Positions 2 through 7,213 of a DNA stretch of 64,000 nt are shown here, one piece after another. The stretch is taken from assembly GCA_002937505.1 (NCBI GenBank), contig PTJY01000001.1, forward strand, positions 186,001-250,000, in the 5' to 3' direction. The notes beneath the pieces are model-generated. The model was not told the DNA's origin and ran no database searches. It saw only the letters and a program-made list of their open reading frames with translations. The DNA is from Alphaproteobacteria bacterium MarineAlpha12_Bin1. GTDB lineage: Bacteria > Pseudomonadota > Alphaproteobacteria > UBA6615. The position numbers and the translations under genes were made by a program. Position 1 is the first letter of the stretch. Each line of letters opens with the position of its first letter.

Positions 2-532
2 ACAATTATATTACCGACAGTAGAGGGCATGGCATTAGAAGGTACTCCGTTTAAGGGGGTTCTTTATGCAGGGCTAATGCTTACGAGTGAGGGTCCTAAA
101 TTACTTGAGTATAACGTGCGTTTTGGCGATCCCGAATGCCAAGTGCTGATGATGCGATTGCGCTCGGACATCCTTCCAGCATTATTAGCCACAAACCAGG
201 GAACACTAGATAATTTTAGTTTAAGATGGTCACAAGATGCGGCTTTAACAATTGTAATGGCCGCAAAAGGCTATCCTGGAAAATATAAAACTGGTGAAAA
301 AATTGTTGGATTAGAATCTATTAAAGCCAATGAGGCCCTAATTTTTCATGCTGCCACCAAGTCAAAAAGTGGACAACTTGTTTCAAATGGTGGTCGCGTA
401 CTAAACATTTGTTCAAGTGGAAAAGAAATCAAAGACGCACAAAAAAAAGCCTATAGCGCCATTAAAAAAATAGAGTGGGAAGGAGGATTCTATCGTAATG
501 ATATTGGCTGGAGAGCAATTAGTGAGAGTTAA
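2..532 (+). CDS. purD: Phosphoribosylamine--glycine ligase, C-terminal part (5' end outside window)
   Basis: This is the C-terminal portion of the ATP-grasp enzyme that joins glycine to phosphoribosylamine to give GAR in cytosolic purine synthesis. The frame is open from base 2, before the first ATG at 29, so the gene starts upstream of the window. The visible part carries the family hallmark run Gly-Val-Leu-Tyr-Ala-Gly-Leu-Met followed by EYNVRFGDPECQ, which holds Mg/ATP-binding Glu and Asn residues. The later beta-rich C-terminal domain ends near GGFYRNDIGW. The stop overlaps the convergent ureohydrolase gene by 14 bases. Identity is secure; the N-terminal and central domains cannot be checked. 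Confidence 0.95.
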   Translation, partial: TIILPTVEGMALEGTPFKGVLYAGLMLTSEGPKLLEYNVRFGDPECQVLMMRLRSDILPALLATNQGTLDNFSLRWSQDAALTIVMAAKGYPGKYKTGEKIVGLESIKANEALIFHAATKSKSGQLVSNGGRVLNICSSGKEIKDAQKKAYSAIKKIEWEGGFYRNDIGWRAISES

Positions 533-1415
533 AAAAACGATAACCTAAAATTTTGTAAGCAAGTTTGGCGGCTAGAAAGTCATAAGCAGGAAAACCTTTA
601 ATAGGAGCTAGTTCAACTATATCTGCTCCAACTATGTTTGAAGCAACTTGCGACGCCTTATGAATTATTTTGATTACTTCTTCCCATGACATACCTCCCG
701 GCTCTGGGGTGCCGGTAGCTGGCATAATACTAATATCAAAGCCATCAAGATCAACACTCAAATATGTTTGAGTATTGCGCAGAGGAGAAATAATTTCATC
801 TATATTCCAGGACTCTTTATCCTTTGCCCAATATATATTTATACGATCGTTATTAGATTCATAAAAGGAAGCTTCTTGGGAGGATATACTCCTAACTCCA
901 ACGCTAACCACTCTTACATCTTTATAATCCAAACATCTCCTGATTACTGTTGCATGAGACAATTTTTTCTGATCATACCTGTCTCTAAGATCAGCGTGGG
1001 CATCAATATGAAGAAGAGAAAGACCCTCTCCACTTTTTAAAAAAGGGCGTATGGCTCCTGCCGTTAAGGAATGTTCCCCACCTAAAATCAGAGGAAAAGA
1101 ATCGTCTTCCAATATATGACTTACGACTCCCTCCAACTGTTCCAAAGCGGGGCGAATTCCTGATTTAATGGTAAAAGGTGCAAGAGTTTTAAGATTAAAG
1201 TCCTTATATGGCTCATAACAAAGCTCCTCATCAAATAATTCCAACTGATGAGATGCTTTTATTATAGCTTCTGGGCCTTTAGATGTGCCTCGACCGTAGG
1301 TCACTGATTCCTCTATACCGAAAGGAACAACCGTAACCTTCTTCTTTCCGCGTCCGATTAAGAATTCTTTATCAGATAAACCCAAAAAACCCATCTTCGG
1401 AGATAAGATCTTCAT
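519..1415 (-). CDS. speB: Agmatinase-type ureohydrolase
   Basis: The protein has 298 residues, normal for the arginase/agmatinase family of binuclear-manganese ureohydrolases, which release urea from agmatine or related guanidino compounds. Metal-ligand motifs are intact: GGEHS at 112-116, HIDAHAD at 136-142 and Asp222/Asp224 in SVDLDGFD. It is the last gene of a minus-strand operon after an ornithine decarboxylase and a deoxyhypusine-synthase homologue, and its start overlaps the preceding stop by 4 bases, implying translational coupling. The setting points to polyamine metabolism, so agmatine to putrescine is the favoured reaction. A different guanidino substrate is possible, because sequence alone does not separate the subfamilies. 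Confidence 0.85.
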   Translation of the reverse strand: MKILSPKMGFLGLSDKEFLIGRGKKKVTVVPFGIEESVTYGRGTSKGPEAIIKASHQLELFDEELCYEPYKDFNLKTLAPFTIKSGIRPALEQLEGVVSHILEDDSFPLILGGEHSLTAGAIRPFLKSGEGLSLLHIDAHADLRDRYDQKKLSHATVIRRCLDYKDVRVVSVGVRSISSQEASFYESNNDRINIYWAKDKESWNIDEIISPLRNTQTYLSVDLDGFDISIMPATGTPEPGGMSWEEVIKIIHKASQVASNIVGADIVELAPIKGFPAYDFLAAKLAYKILGYRFFNSH

Positions 1416-2497
1416 TTACTGACAGAATCTTTATAAATCGACGCAAACCTCCTTTGAGGACGTTTCTTCCAGCTACCTCTATGGTATGCATCACTTGCTA
1501 ATAAAGGCATTACACTAGTTGCTTCAGCAAAGACCATTTGTTCCATTTTCGTATCAACTTTTCCCCACGATGAAGCCTCCTCAAGAGTAGATGAACTACA
1601 TGCACCATCGCGCACATCAGCAACAGTGATTTGAATAGCGTATTTATGCATTTCTGATTGATTACCTAATTTTTCGGCACAGACAACAATATCTTGTGCA
1701 TAATTTTTAGCCATACCCCCACCTATCATCAAGAGACCAGTAGTCCCCGATTTAATTTTGATTTCTGTTAACTCTCGAAAATCTCGCACAGAATCTATTG
1801 TTAGGTGTTTCTTGGGGTTTTTTTCTTGATGAATAACCAATCCCATTCCAGCACTGGAGTCAGTAAACGCTGGACAAAAGACAGGGACTTCTTTTTCAAA
1901 AGCCGTCTGAACTAAGGATCCAGATTTACGCGCATTTCCAGACGATAAGTAAGACCCCATATGACTGATAAATTCCCTGGAAGTATATGGACGATCTTCC
2001 AGCTGATCTGCAATATCTGCTATAACGTTGTCACAGAATTGCAGGTCGTTTTCTCTAATGAATGTATCATAAATTCGATCAATTCCGATTCGCCTTAACT
2101 CACCATCGTCAATTTTTGAATCTCCACGAAAATGGCGAAAACCAAGGGCTTCAAAAAAATCCATGTCAACGATACTTGCCCCAGAAGCAACAACCACATC
2201 AACCATATTATATCTGACAAGATCAGAATAAATTTGCATGCAACCACCGGCAGAGGTTGAGCCTGCTATGGTCAAGATAATACTACAACTAAGGTCTTCC
2301 AGCATGCAGTTATAGATTTGGGCTGCTCTAGCTAATTCTCTTGAGCTAAAAGACATCTTTGACATTGAATCGACAATACTTCTAGCATCAAAACTAGTGA
2401 AATCAATGTGTTCAATAGGACTATTCAGTAGTGCTTTGCTATTTATTTTTTCTTTAATGTTCATACAGAGATCCAAGGTAAAAGAGGTTTCAACCAC
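1412..2497 (-). CDS. Deoxyhypusine synthase-like protein
   Basis: This 361-residue protein belongs to the deoxyhypusine synthase family, NAD-dependent enzymes that transfer the aminobutyl group of spermidine. The sequence EASSWGK places a lysine at residue 313 where the family has its catalytic imine-forming lysine. Gly-rich NAD-contact segments (SGAS, MIGGGMAKN) are also visible. Bacteria lack eIF5A, so the acceptor is not the eukaryotic one; a homospermidine-synthase-like or other aminobutyl transfer to a small amine is an inference. The gene lies between ornithine decarboxylase and agmatinase with overlapping ends. The GTG start at 2497 overlaps ODC by 8 bases; an ATG at 2464, 11 residues in, is an equally plausible start. 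Confidence 0.85.
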   Translation of the reverse strand: MVETSFTLDLCMNIKEKINSKALLNSPIEHIDFTSFDARSIVDSMSKMSFSSRELARAAQIYNCMLEDLSCSIILTIAGSTSAGGCMQIYSDLVRYNMVDVVVASGASIVDMDFFEALGFRHFRGDSKIDDGELRRIGIDRIYDTFIRENDLQFCDNVIADIADQLEDRPYTSREFISHMGSYLSSGNARKSGSLVQTAFEKEVPVFCPAFTDSSAGMGLVIHQEKNPKKHLTIDSVRDFRELTEIKIKSGTTGLLMIGGGMAKNYAQDIVVCAEKLGNQSEMHKYAIQITVADVRDGACSSSTLEEASSWGKVDTKMEQMVFAEATSVMPLLASDAYHRGSWKKRPQRRFASIYKDSVSK

Positions 2498-3671
2498 CTA
2501 CTAGCTGCCATTCATGAGAGGACCGTTGGTACATAGATAGGATCGGTAGATCAGATAATATTACAGTTCTATCTGAGTAGAATCCATTAAACCGTGTTCG
2601 CATAGTACACCCATAGGCACCGGTCTGTCCTATTTCAATATAGTCTCCTTCCTTCATGTCTTCAGGTAGAATAAATGGGCCCTTCATGTAATCCAAACCA
2701 TCACACGTTGGACCAAATAACGAATAAGGTGAAAGCGAGGCTGAGAAATTTCCAGCTTTACGGATAGGCTTAACGGGAAAAACAAAACCCGGAAATCCGG
2801 CATCAAATAGACTTCCGTAGGTGCCATCGTTTATATAAAGATGATCTTCTTTTCTATGATCTACGCGTACTAGTGTAGAGGCGCCCTCAGCTACTAGCGC
2901 TCGACCCGGCTCTGCCCAGATTTCACATTTGTTAATCACCGGAATTCTTTCTTTAATTGTTCTAATTTCATCTAAGTAGGCATCTAATGGTGGTGGCGCT
3001 AAGTTCGGATATATTGAAGGAAAACCTCCTCCCACATCAATAATGTCTAAAATTAAGCCAGATGATCGAATAATCTGCCCAACTGTTTTTAAAGCCGATG
3101 AGAAAGAAGAGGGACTCATGCACTGAGAGCCAACATGAAAACAAATACCTATCTTTTTTGACACTGGCCGAATACAAGACAGTATATGAGCTACTTTTGC
3201 AGGAGAAGCTCCAAACTTTTGCGATAGATTGAATTCCGCATAATCGTTAGGAACGGCTAGACGGACAAAAAGATTGAGATCTTCAGCATAATCAGTAGAA
3301 ACTAAAATTTTATTAAGTTCATCTACCGAATCTAGAGCAAAATCACGAACTCCATATTTAAAGTAAGCATTTTTAATTGAGCCTCGGCTTTTTATCGGAT
3401 GCATGTAAGCAAGATGACACTCCGGATAACGACCATACAAAAGCTCAGCCTCAGACAGAGAAGCGATTTCAAAATGATTTATTCCAGCATTATAGATTGA
3501 ATCAATTATTTCCAGTCTTGGATTAGCCTTAACTGCATATAATATCTTTCCGGGAAATCGATTCTTAAAGTAAGTAGCGGCTCGATTAGCCATCTCAGGT
3601 CTTAGGCAGGTAACTGGACGGTCCGGTTCATGCTGTTGGACAAGGGACCGAGCGGACGAAAATAGTTCCAT
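2490..3671 (-). CDS. Ornithine/lysine decarboxylase, fold-III PLP enzyme
   Basis: This 393-residue alanine-racemase-fold decarboxylase resembles the eukaryotic-type ornithine decarboxylases common in alphaproteobacteria. Visible landmarks are the PLP-binding lysine in YAVKANP (Lys48), HVGSQ at 179-183, the glycine loop DVGGGFPS near 212-219, the phosphate-binding EPGR at 254-257 and the CDGLD motif at 323-327, whose Cys and Asp act across the dimer interface. It should make putrescine from ornithine, possibly cadaverine from lysine, because the two specificities overlap in this family. It is the first gene of the operon with the deoxyhypusine-synthase homologue and ureohydrolase. The 131 bases upstream are AT-rich and show no recognisable riboswitch. 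Confidence 0.9.
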   Translation of the reverse strand: MELFSSARSLVQQHEPDRPVTCLRPEMANRAATYFKNRFPGKILYAVKANPRLEIIDSIYNAGINHFEIASLSEAELLYGRYPECHLAYMHPIKSRGSIKNAYFKYGVRDFALDSVDELNKILVSTDYAEDLNLFVRLAVPNDYAEFNLSQKFGASPAKVAHILSCIRPVSKKIGICFHVGSQCMSPSSFSSALKTVGQIIRSSGLILDIIDVGGGFPSIYPNLAPPPLDAYLDEIRTIKERIPVINKCEIWAEPGRALVAEGASTLVRVDHRKEDHLYINDGTYGSLFDAGFPGFVFPVKPIRKAGNFSASLSPYSLFGPTCDGLDYMKGPFILPEDMKEGDYIEIGQTGAYGCTMRTRFNGFYSDRTVILSDLPILSMYQRSSHEWQLVGG

Positions 3672-3802: not shown

Positions 3803-4996
3803 TCAAAATTCTGACCAATTAGGTAGTTCTTTAGGTAATACAACGTGATCCCGACAAATTGTATTAATATTCTTAACACCCATTACTGCCATAGTACGCA
3901 GAGTCTCTGATCGCAGAATTTCGAGAGCTCTTAAAGCCCCCGTTTCACCGGCAGCACTAAGCCCGTAGAGAGTAGGCCTACCGATCATCACAGCATTCGC
4001 ACCTAACGCTAATCCTTTTAGTATATCACTTCCACGACGAAAGCCGCTATCTACCAGAACTGTCATTCGATTACCCACACACGAAACAATATCAGGCAAC
4101 GCATCAATTGGTGCAATCCCTGCATCATTTGCGATTCCACCATGGTTTGAAACAATAACTCCATCAGCGCCCAGCTCTGCCGCCATTAGGGCATCTTTCG
4201 GATGCAGAACTCCCTTGATCAGAAGAGTTCTGGACCATCTATCTCGTATCATTTTAAAAAAATCCCAATTTATTGCATCATTCTTCGTCAGAAAGCTTTT
4301 TATAGAGTCGGACTTCAAACCATCAGGCATCTCAATATTCACGTAACGCGGCATGTGTCCTTCAGAAAGGATGTATGAACCTAAAGTACCAAACATCCAT
4401 CTAGGATGAGTTAAAGTGTCTAAAAAGTTACGGGTAGTAATCCTAACAGGAAAAGTTGCCCCATTACGAATATCAAACTCACGATTATAGGGTACGGTAG
4501 AGTCAACCGTTAGGACTAAGGCTTCGAAACCCGAATCATATGCTCTTTTTGTAGTAATCAGAGAAGATTCTATGTCTCTCCACACATACAACTGATACCA
4601 TTGTGATCCTCCTCCTTCTTCTAATATTCTTTCCATTGGCGTGTTTGCAGTACTAGATAATGTAAAGGGGATTCCTGCACTAGAGGCAGCTTTAGCAAGC
4701 TTAATTTCACCTCTATACCACACATATCCCGCTGGTCCCGTAGGGCCAATCACTATGGGTAACTGAATAGTTTTACCAAAAAGCTTTGTTTCCGCCGTCC
4801 TATCTGAAACATCCTCTAGAACACGTGGCATTAATTTTATTCGTTCCAATGCAGCTTTATTATTTTTTAAAGCTATATCGTCCTCACTTCCTCGATCTAT
4901 AAATTCGAACAAGGCCCTGCTTAGACGTTTTTTAGACATCAGCCGCAAATCTTCAATGTTTAAAGCTTTTTTCAAAACAGTTTCCACTACATGCAA
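3803..4996 (-). CDS. FMN-dependent alpha-hydroxyacid dehydrogenase paralogue 1
   Basis: The 397 residues cover the whole FMN TIM barrel of the lactate/mandelate/glycolate dehydrogenase family, and overall features resemble (S)-mandelate dehydrogenase. Against glycolate oxidase the following are kept: Tyr137 in YQLYV, Asp165, Arg172, Lys261 in IKG, catalytic His285 in SNHGG, and the FMN phosphate segment DSGFRRGSD. Two residues that normally clamp the substrate carboxylate are changed: the Tyr24 equivalent is Phe32, and the Arg of SNHGGR is Ile288. The protein should bind FMN and may abstract hydride, but its substrate is unlikely to be held as an ordinary 2-hydroxyacid. It is the second gene of a tandem pair, overlapping the first by 10 bases. 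Confidence 0.88.
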   Translation of the reverse strand: MHVVETVLKKALNIEDLRLMSKKRLSRALFEFIDRGSEDDIALKNNKAALERIKLMPRVLEDVSDRTAETKLFGKTIQLPIVIGPTGPAGYVWYRGEIKLAKAASSAGIPFTLSSTANTPMERILEEGGGSQWYQLYVWRDIESSLITTKRAYDSGFEALVLTVDSTVPYNREFDIRNGATFPVRITTRNFLDTLTHPRWMFGTLGSYILSEGHMPRYVNIEMPDGLKSDSIKSFLTKNDAINWDFFKMIRDRWSRTLLIKGVLHPKDALMAAELGADGVIVSNHGGIANDAGIAPIDALPDIVSCVGNRMTVLVDSGFRRGSDILKGLALGANAVMIGRPTLYGLSAAGETGALRALEILRSETLRTMAVMGVKNINTICRDHVVLPKELPNWSEF

Positions 4997-6171
4997 TCAG
5001 AAGAATTCAACTTAGACGGTAATACAATATGATCAGGTGCCAATGAATTTAAATTTGTTAGTCCCATTACGCCCATAGTTCTATGAATTTCTGCTGATAA
5101 AATAGAGAGGGCTCTGCTTGCTCCAGCTTCACCTGCTGCTCCAACTCCATATAACGTCGCTCTTCCAATAGCCACAGCGTCGGCGCCCATGGCCAGACCT
5201 TTTAAGACATCGCTACCGCGTCGAAACCCACTATCAACGATTATAGTCAACCGATCACTGACTGCTGAAACAATAGTAGGCAGAACTTGGATTGGAGCTA
5301 TAGCAGCATCATTTGTATTACCCGCATGATTAGAAACAATTATCCCATCAACTCCGCAGTCTGCACACCTAATAGCATCCTCTGGATGCAAAATACCCTT
5401 AACAATTAATGTTCGAGGCCATGCCTCTCTCAGCCGTTTTAGAAAGTCCCAACTCAGAGTATCATTTCTAACAAGGAAGTTGTTTTTGTTCGTTGAAGAG
5501 TACTTTTCAGGTATATATACGTTTGGAAATTTAGGCATATGACCATCGGCTAAAACGTATCGTCCTAAAGTGCCTATTAACCAACGGGGATGCAATAAAC
5601 TATCGATCGATCCACGGATTGTTATTCTGGGCGGGAAAACAATACCATTTCGAGTATCAAACTCTCTGTTATTGTACGTTGGTGAATCAACCGTTAATAA
5701 AAGTGCTTCAAAACCGGCATCCAATACTCTTTCTACTGTGACCATAGCAGCCTCTATGTCGCGCCAAACATATAGTTGATACCATTGGGTGCCACCACCT
5801 AAAGACTTTATTGTCTCCATAGAGGTATTTCCGGTACTTGATAATGTAAAGGGAATTCCTGCATTGTTCGCAGCTTTTGCCAATGCGATCTCTCCACGAT
5901 ACCAAACAAATCCTGCAGGGCCTGTTGGGCCTATTATTAAAGGTAAAGACTGTTTTTTTCCAAATAGCCTTATCTCTGTATTTCGATCAGACACATCATT
6001 TAAAATTCTTGGCATTAACTTTATACTATCTAAGGCTGAACGATTGTTTTTCATCGCAACCTCGTCCTCACTGCCCCGATCACAAAATTCAAATAGCGCC
6101 TTGGTTAAACGTCGTTTAGCCATGAGACGCAGGTCCTCAATGTTGAGTGCTATATGCGGAGAATAATTCAA
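4987..6171 (-). CDS. FMN-dependent alpha-hydroxyacid dehydrogenase paralogue 2
   Basis: This 394-residue paralogue of the next gene shares its N-terminal pattern (ALNIEDLRLM) and most of the barrel, so a local duplication is likely. FMN and catalytic positions are retained: YQLYV at 131-135, Asp162, Arg169, Lys258, His282 and DSGFRRGSD. The carboxylate-binding Arg is Asn285 and the Tyr24 equivalent is Phe29. The glycine after the active His is Ala (SNHAG), which also differs from the partner. The start is TTG, with an AGGAAAG element about 11 bases upstream. The pair may form hetero-oligomers or serve different substrates; neither can be decided from sequence. A TauD-type dioxygenase is divergently oriented upstream. 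Confidence 0.88.
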   Translation of the reverse strand: MNYSPHIALNIEDLRLMAKRRLTKALFEFCDRGSEDEVAMKNNRSALDSIKLMPRILNDVSDRNTEIRLFGKKQSLPLIIGPTGPAGFVWYRGEIALAKAANNAGIPFTLSSTGNTSMETIKSLGGGTQWYQLYVWRDIEAAMVTVERVLDAGFEALLLTVDSPTYNNREFDTRNGIVFPPRITIRGSIDSLLHPRWLIGTLGRYVLADGHMPKFPNVYIPEKYSSTNKNNFLVRNDTLSWDFLKRLREAWPRTLIVKGILHPEDAIRCADCGVDGIIVSNHAGNTNDAAIAPIQVLPTIVSAVSDRLTIIVDSGFRRGSDVLKGLAMGADAVAIGRATLYGVGAAGEAGASRALSILSAEIHRTMGVMGLTNLNSLAPDHIVLPSKLNSSDCM

Positions 6172-6346
6172 GTTTTATTATACTTTCCTGTTTTTTTAAA
6201 AGAGGTTGTTTACAAAAATTCTACCTTTTAACAATAAACAAATATAATAGGTTTTTAAATTTGGTTAATTTTTAAAATTATATATTGCAATAAGATGACC
6301 TATTAGGAAAATAAAAGCACTAAAATTGTTTACAAAGGAAATTGAA

Positions 6347-7213
6347 ATGAAAATTGTGCCTATGACGTCATCGATCGGTGCTGAGATAATTGGCGCCAAC
6401 CTAGAGAAACTATCTGAAACTGAATTTGAAAAGATACACGATGCCTTTACCAAGCACCTTGTTTTATTTTTCCGAGATCAGGATGAACTCTCGCCCGAGA
6501 CGCAAATATCTTTTGCAAAACGATTCGGTGATTTACACTATCACCCTGCTGCGCCAAAATCTAAAAAGTACCCCGAGTTGTTCGTAATTCACTCTCACAA
6601 GGACTCCAAATTTGCTGATGGTAATGGGTGGCATACCGATGTTTCTTGTGATTCAGAACCACCCTTAGGTTCATGTTTACAGCTACATGTCTTACCATCC
6701 ACTGGGGGAGACACTTTATTTGCTAGTATGTACGCTGCATTTGAAACCCTTTCATCGACAATGCAAAAGTTTTTGTCAACTTTAACTGCCATTCATGAAT
6801 CCGAACACCTCTACAGGGGTAGGTATGAGGAGAGAGGCGTTGATGATACTGACACAATTTATCCAACTGCTGAACATCCTTTAATACGAACACATCCAGT
6901 ATCTGGCAGACAATCGATATATGTGAATCCCAGTTTCACAACTAAAATAAAAGATTTATCCAGATCAGAAAGTAAGTCACTACTGTCCTTTATTTATAAC
7001 CATCAGCAAAGACCTGAATTTCAGGTACGTTTTCGCTGGTCCAAAAATGCTATAGCTTTTTGGGATAATCGCTGTACTCAGCACTTTGCTTTGTGGGATT
7101 ATTGGCCAGATGAAAGAAAAGGAAACCGGGTTACCATTAAGGGAGAAAAACCATTCTACAAACCCTCTCAATTAGTGGAGAGCAAGTTAAAAATATCTGA
7201 TAGAAATAATTAG
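6347..7213 (+). CDS. TauD/TfdA-family Fe(II)/2-oxoglutarate dioxygenase
   Basis: This 288-residue protein is a member of the taurine/2,4-D dioxygenase family. The iron facial triad is His96 and Asp98 in GWHTD plus His246 in NRCTQH. A 2-oxoglutarate-binding Arg lies in the closing NRVTIKG segment. Such enzymes hydroxylate alkyl sulfonates, sulfates, aryloxy acids or quaternary amines, and the substrate cannot be read here. The ATG at 6347 is preceded by AAAGGA at a spacing of 7 and is preferred over a TTG seven codons upstream. It is divergent from the FMN dehydrogenase pair, with about 175 bases between them that could hold both promoters. Confidence 0.9.
   Translation: MKIVPMTSSIGAEIIGANLEKLSETEFEKIHDAFTKHLVLFFRDQDELSPETQISFAKRFGDLHYHPAAPKSKKYPELFVIHSHKDSKFADGNGWHTDVSCDSEPPLGSCLQLHVLPSTGGDTLFASMYAAFETLSSTMQKFLSTLTAIHESEHLYRGRYEERGVDDTDTIYPTAEHPLIRTHPVSGRQSIYVNPSFTTKIKDLSRSESKSLLSFIYNHQQRPEFQVRFRWSKNAIAFWDNRCTQHFALWDYWPDERKGNRVTIKGEKPFYKPSQLVESKLKISDRNN

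Follow-up and report, generated by a model that had tools for sequence, protein, structure and literature searches.

The window, by which we mean the whole 64,000-nucleotide stretch analysed here, carries two tandem, overlapping genes for paralogous FMN-dependent dehydrogenases. We refer to them as I type and N type, after the residue (Ile or Asn) that each has at the position of Arg257 in spinach glycolate oxidase (GOX). The positions and frames of these two open reading frames were correct in the earlier note, as re-checking the coordinates showed. The pair and its surroundings are as follows.

3803..4996, minus strand: I-type FMN_dh paralogue, 397 aa, SNHGGI motif, Ile288 at the GOX Arg257 position
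4987..6171, minus strand: N-type FMN_dh paralogue, 394 aa, SNHAGN motif, Asn285 at the GOX Arg257 position
4987..4996, minus strand: overlap of the I and N genes, 10 bases, from the ORF coordinates
4397..4408, minus strand: HPRW in the long loop-4 segment of the I type, as in membrane-associated mandelate dehydrogenase (MDH) and LldD
5581..5592, minus strand: HPRW in the long loop-4 segment of the N type
519-3671, minus strand: three consecutive genes, for agmatinase, 1,9-bis(guanidino)-5-aza-nonane synthase (both over their NCBIfam cut-offs) and a decarboxylase of the ODC/DAP type
6326-7213, plus strand: TauD-like dioxygenase, divergent from the N gene, 288 bits against a taurine dioxygenase cut-off of 313

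The I and N proteins are about 62% identical to each other and score 393 and 400 bits against the PF01070 (FMN_dh) profile, far over its cut-off of 24.9, which places both in the family. Their top NCBIfam scores are to LldD models, both under cut-off: 287 and 281 bits for NF008398 (cut-off 376), and 250 and 240 bits for NF033901 (cut-off 550). AlphaFold2 models of the I type (pLDDT 90.3) and N type (pLDDT 90.4), which as predictions speak to the TIM-barrel fold only, both have as their top PDB match the monotopic membrane MDH 6bfg, with Z scores of 48.9 and 49.6. This (S)-mandelate dehydrogenase of Pseudomonas putida resembles I and N in fold (Z 49-50), in sequence (37-40% identity), in its long HPRW membrane loop, in having Gly at GOX 79, and in its His, Lys, Asp, Tyr and Arg164 residues, but it has Arg277 at GOX 257 and Tyr at GOX 24, where I and N have Ile/Asn and Phe. 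Escherichia coli LldD likewise shares family, loop 4 and catalytic residues with I and N, but not their lack of Arg257 and Tyr24. The two window proteins, encoded in tandem, are paralogues, and the small clade to which they belong consists of alphaproteobacterial FMN-dependent dehydrogenases of the mandelate/L-lactate dehydrogenase type.

Active-site residues were numbered by alignment to GOX, with the query checked against 1gox. The alignment bears out two observations of the earlier note, that the FMN, base and proton residues are retained in both paralogues and that the Arg of the SNHGGR motif has become Ile288 or Asn285 and the equivalent of Tyr24 Phe in both. It also reveals what that note overlooked, namely that GOX Arg164, a second Arg that contacts the carboxylate, is retained. 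The codons concerned, all placed by the GOX alignment, are these.

4133..4135, minus strand: Ile288, GOX Arg257 position, I type
5317..5319, minus strand: Asn285, GOX Arg257 position, N type
4901..4903, minus strand: Phe32, GOX Tyr24 position, I type
6085..6087, minus strand: Phe29, GOX Tyr24 position, N type
4481..4483, minus strand: Arg172, retained at the GOX Arg164 position (second substrate Arg), I type
5665..5667, minus strand: Arg169, retained at the GOX Arg164 position (second substrate Arg), N type

Tyr129, Asp157, Lys230, His254, Asp285 and Arg164 (GOX numbering) are unchanged in both proteins, the catalytic Lys and His being Lys261/258 and His285/282 in I/N. Among the seven residues conserved in 2-hydroxy acid oxidases and dehydrogenases, Tyr129, Lys230, His254, Asp157 and Arg164 are present, and the carboxylate-binding Tyr24 and Arg257 are replaced by Phe and by Ile or Asn. 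Further changes in the pocket fall at the positions of GOX Trp108, Leu161/Gly162 and Leu259, and the pocket has new polar residues: Thr at GOX 108, Asn at 110 and Asn or Ser at 259. The paralogues also differ from each other, with Tyr170 beside Ile in the I type and Asn167 beside Asn in the N type. An Arg has been gained at GOX 87 (Arg95/Arg92) and is invariant in the clade; it does not look like a specific replacement of Arg257, since both MDH and LldD carry a basic residue (Lys or Arg) at this position together with an ordinary Arg257.

At 69 residues in both I and N, loop 4 is longer than in soluble GOX (46 residues) and close in length to that of membrane MDH (65), and both proteins have the extended, HPRW-bearing form that is a feature of the membrane-associated MDH type. 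GOX Ala79 is Gly in both, as it is in MDH and LldD. By analogy with these enzymes, and because of the long HPRW loop 4, I and N are probably membrane-associated, quinone-linked dehydrogenases; it is the loop by itself that suggests electron transfer to quinone.

Loss of Arg257 is rare. We sampled 120 genomes across Pseudomonadota and recovered 59 FMN_dh proteins from 40 of them, and Arg257 was present in every one (59/59) and Tyr24 in 56/59. The Ile or Asn state, by comparison, is invariant within its type among 43 relatives (19 Ile and 24 Asn sequences). Of 24 genomes in the family to which the window belongs, 20 have one or both types and at least 14 have both. Across a class-wide sample of 289 genomes, strong matches were confined to that family, and four genomes outside it gave weaker matches in which the Arg is retained. 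More I or N proteins were found in OCS116, TMED25, MarineAlpha3 and some soil and freshwater Hyphomicrobiales metagenome-assembled genomes (MAGs). A literature search found no described subfamily lacking Arg257, and the only other Arg257-less group that we met in this analysis is MftD.

In an LG+C20 tree, the Arg257-less proteins form one clade (support 100/100), which indicates that Arg257 was lost once on the lineage of the window. The Asn-type sequences in turn form a clade (100/100) that lies within the Ile-type ones; an initial change from Arg to Ile, with the Asn paralogue arising afterwards, is therefore the probable course, although the branching order among the Ile-type groups is weakly supported. 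The nearest relatives of the clade are betaproteobacterial and Pseudomonas proteins that carry both Phe24 and Arg257 (97/87), and the change from Tyr24 to Phe is therefore probably older than the loss of the Arg. The earlier note had asked whether the two changes mark a conserved subclade; the Arg-less state does, whereas Phe24 extends into the Arg-bearing sister group. This sister, an alpha-hydroxy acid oxidase subfamily with an SNHGGRN motif, is about 50% identical to I and N and shares their long loop 4 and, mostly, Phe24, but has Arg257 intact. SNHGGRN-like members occur in Caballeronia, Bordetella petrii, Pseudomonas and others (L154:8980-10212, L089, L083, L077), and we know of no characterised one. 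Our search pattern for relatives favoured Phe24, but the plasmid matches L154 and L155, found without the pattern, also have it. On the Burkholderia multivorans plasmid (L155:5570-9167), an Arg-bearing relative lies in an apparent operon with an aminotransferase and a 2-hydroxyacid dehydrogenase, and has Asn aligned at the otherwise invariant Tyr129.

That the lost residue is essential in the members studied raises the prospect that I and N are degenerated duplicates, weakly active or non-oxidative. This is very improbable. Between the window and a 93% identical relative (L036), dN/dS is 0.070 for N and 0.069 for I, similar to the 0.073 of the adjoining TauD-like gene; both genes are under strong purifying selection and are not decaying. 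The catalytic residues are, in addition, invariant across the 43 sequences, and the genes persist in 20/24 genomes of the family.

The arrangement of the genes is less constant than their active sites. I and N overlap in the window and, by 1-4 bases, in three relatives (L036-L038) from the two genera that share the syntenic locus, which suggests translational coupling there. Two further genera of the window's family, however, have I and N on different contigs or at a distance of more than 500 kb, the OCS116 and TMED25 genomes have N only, and the Hyphomicrobiales MAGs have one type or the other, although many of these are drafts in which a missing copy is not a proven absence. Single-type genomes and distant copies led us to reject an obligate I/N pair, and the earlier suggestion that duplication implies a paired or hetero-oligomeric function does not hold as a necessity; where the genes are in tandem a hetero-oligomer may form, but the family does not require it.

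Nor did the neighbourhood serve as a clue to the substrate: synteny is limited to two genera, other lineages differ and no pathway is shared. The genes at 519-3671, which would give this marine alphaproteobacterium an alternative, homospermidine-type route to polyamines, are syntenic in L036-L038; together with the TauD-like gene they accompany the pair in two genera only, with the decarboxylase also in a third, and their conservation beside the pair coincides with a wider conserved gene order. At eight loci (L046, L047, L048, L053, L058, L060, L068 and L109), a gene of the 3-hydroxyisobutyrate dehydrogenase/2-hydroxy-3-oxopropionate reductase type is found immediately, or almost immediately, upstream of I. 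In two Hyphomicrobiales MAGs the I gene is followed by the same aromatic-acid-type MFS transporter (L069:11310-12722, L071:11304-12716) and preceded by a tartrate dehydrogenase in L069 and a KdgT-like permease in L071. Around N genes the neighbours are different, and they vary from lineage to lineage. No RiPP or cofactor partner gene was found beside the pair.

The TauD-like gene, found beside the pair in two genera, and the invariant Arg at GOX 87 together raise the idea that the substrate bears another acid group, such as a phosphonate, sulfonate or phosphate, held by Arg164 and the gained Arg, with the dioxygenase acting in the same pathway. We consider this unlikely. Most of the clade's loci lack the dioxygenase gene; where it does adjoin the pair the surrounding genes are syntenic too, and the link may be one of shared gene order. 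The score of the protein is also below the taurine dioxygenase cut-off, and its own substrate may not be taurine.

What the loss of Arg257 should do can be judged from studied homologues. In MDH, whose Arg277 corresponds to GOX 257, the R277G substitution lowers kcat and raises KM by about 400-fold each (PMC12018205), and in the p-hydroxymandelate oxidase Hmo the equivalent R255A enzyme is inactive (PMC6677016). In avLOX the carboxylate pocket is created by Tyr40 and Arg268 (PMC4908395). In a screen of 24 FMN_dh proteins, ten showed no activity on hydroxy acids, and in eight of these one or more of the seven conserved residues was missing (PMC8491902). The Tyr is another matter. Wild-type Hmo, which differs from I and N as an oxidase with Ala79 that keeps Arg255, has like them Phe at the Tyr24 position, in its pocket, and yet oxidizes mandelate (PMC6677016). 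Because the sister subfamily also pairs Phe24 with Arg, we rejected Phe24 as a mark of lost carboxylate binding: of the two changes, it is the missing Arg257 that carries the meaning, and the missing Tyr24 is not diagnostic. The earlier note had taken both losses as changed carboxylate binding. For the Arg this stands, in view of the conserved subclade, the MDH and Hmo mutants and the MftD parallel described below; for the Tyr, Hmo and the sister subfamily speak against it.

MftD offers the best precedent, by analogy, for the activity of an Arg257-less member. Four annotated MftD records (from Mycolicibacterium, Streptomyces, Tsukamurella and Thermomicrobium) have Asn at 257 and Ala or Ser at 24, and retain Arg164, Lys230 and His254. 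MftD (TIGR03966) shares with I and N the replacement of Arg257 and Tyr24, the retention of Arg164 and the catalytic residues, and a long loop 4, but it has Leu259 and Phe108 where the window proteins have Asn and Thr. MftD proteins fall on a branch separate from the I/N clade, and their loss of Arg257, to Asn, is therefore independent and convergent. The substrate of MftD is AHDP, an amino-lactam that the enzyme deaminates oxidatively (PMC7491314), and L-lactate use does not require MftD (PMC8406134). I and N are not themselves MftD of a mycofactocin system, a candidate that we rejected: they score 236.7 and 232.0 against TIGR03966 (cut-off 470.85), and the genome of the window gave no match to the MftC maturase at E <= 1e-10, a search in which 12/14 control genomes matched, none over cut-off, so that the controls offered no true positive. 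A phylum-wide TIGR03966 search found none, but its control genomes gave no match either.

Two readings of the substrate then deserve most weight. The enzymes may still be 2-hydroxy acid dehydrogenases that hold the carboxylate with Arg164 and the new polar residues, perhaps with the Arg at GOX 87, and act on a specialized sugar or aromatic hydroxy acid. The mobile second Arg is invariant across the Arg257-less clade, Phe24 is compatible with hydroxy acid oxidation, as in Hmo, and some neighbours look hydroxy acid- or sugar acid-like (the 3-hydroxyisobutyrate-dehydrogenase-type gene, tartrate dehydrogenase, the aromatic-acid-type MFS transporter and the KdgT-like permease). However, those neighbours are inconsistent across lineages, Arg257 is universal among the sampled family members, and its loss leaves Hmo inactive and lowers the kcat/KM of MDH by some five orders of magnitude. 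We regard such an activity as a tentative alternative, credible but the less probable of the two.

The other reading is that the substrate of I and N has no free carboxylate and is an alpha-hydroxy or alpha-amino carbonyl compound, for which we judge the chances about even. Our fuller explanation is that the clade evolved, independently of MftD, to oxidize a non-carboxylate substrate (an alpha-hydroxy or alpha-amino amide, a lactam, or a modified peptide or cofactor), each paralogue having one of two related substrates; we put its probability a little lower, at about 0.45. The single-origin loss, the presence of Arg257 elsewhere, the convergence with MftD and the concerted changes at GOX 108, 162 and 259 argue for a non-carboxylate substrate, as do the MDH R277G and Hmo R255A defects and a dN/dS of 0.07. 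So does Hmo R163L, which lacks the other Arg and still oxidizes mandelamide to the ketoamide (PMC6677016, PMC6778850). On the other side stand the invariant gained Arg at GOX 87 and the kept Arg164, whose homologue contacts the carboxylate in hGOX and Hmo; in hGOX this mobile residue, Arg167, can reach the carboxylate too (PMC10153336). Because MftD also keeps Arg164, that residue decides neither way. Among the loci compared, we found no clue to an amide or peptide from a substrate, a cofactor pathway or a consistent neighbour gene.

If the substrate does lack a carboxylate, family knowledge suggests how it might be handled. His285/282 with GOX Asp157 would act as base or proton shuttle, and Tyr129 and the kept Arg164 would hold the alpha-oxygen or alpha-nitrogen and the adjoining carbonyl. 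A hydride or its equivalent would pass to FMN, and the reduced flavin would give its electrons to quinone. The former carboxylate site could take a neutral acyl group such as an amide, lactam or ester, as may happen in MftD with its Asn there. Given the Ile/Tyr170 and Asn/Asn167 pockets, I and N probably oxidize related but different substrates.

The departure from this well-studied family is real, conserved and of single origin, with one independent, characterized parallel in MftD. Best-score annotation would label I and N as lactate dehydrogenases or alpha-hydroxy acid oxidases. Should the Arg-less pocket indeed mean a non-carboxylate substrate, a conserved group of marine enzymes is misannotated and oxidizes an undescribed metabolite. 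Alongside MftD, the clade is a second independent case of Arg257 replacement, and GOX position 257 would then provide a simple, testable sequence rule with which to predict non-hydroxy-acid substrates in a very large family.
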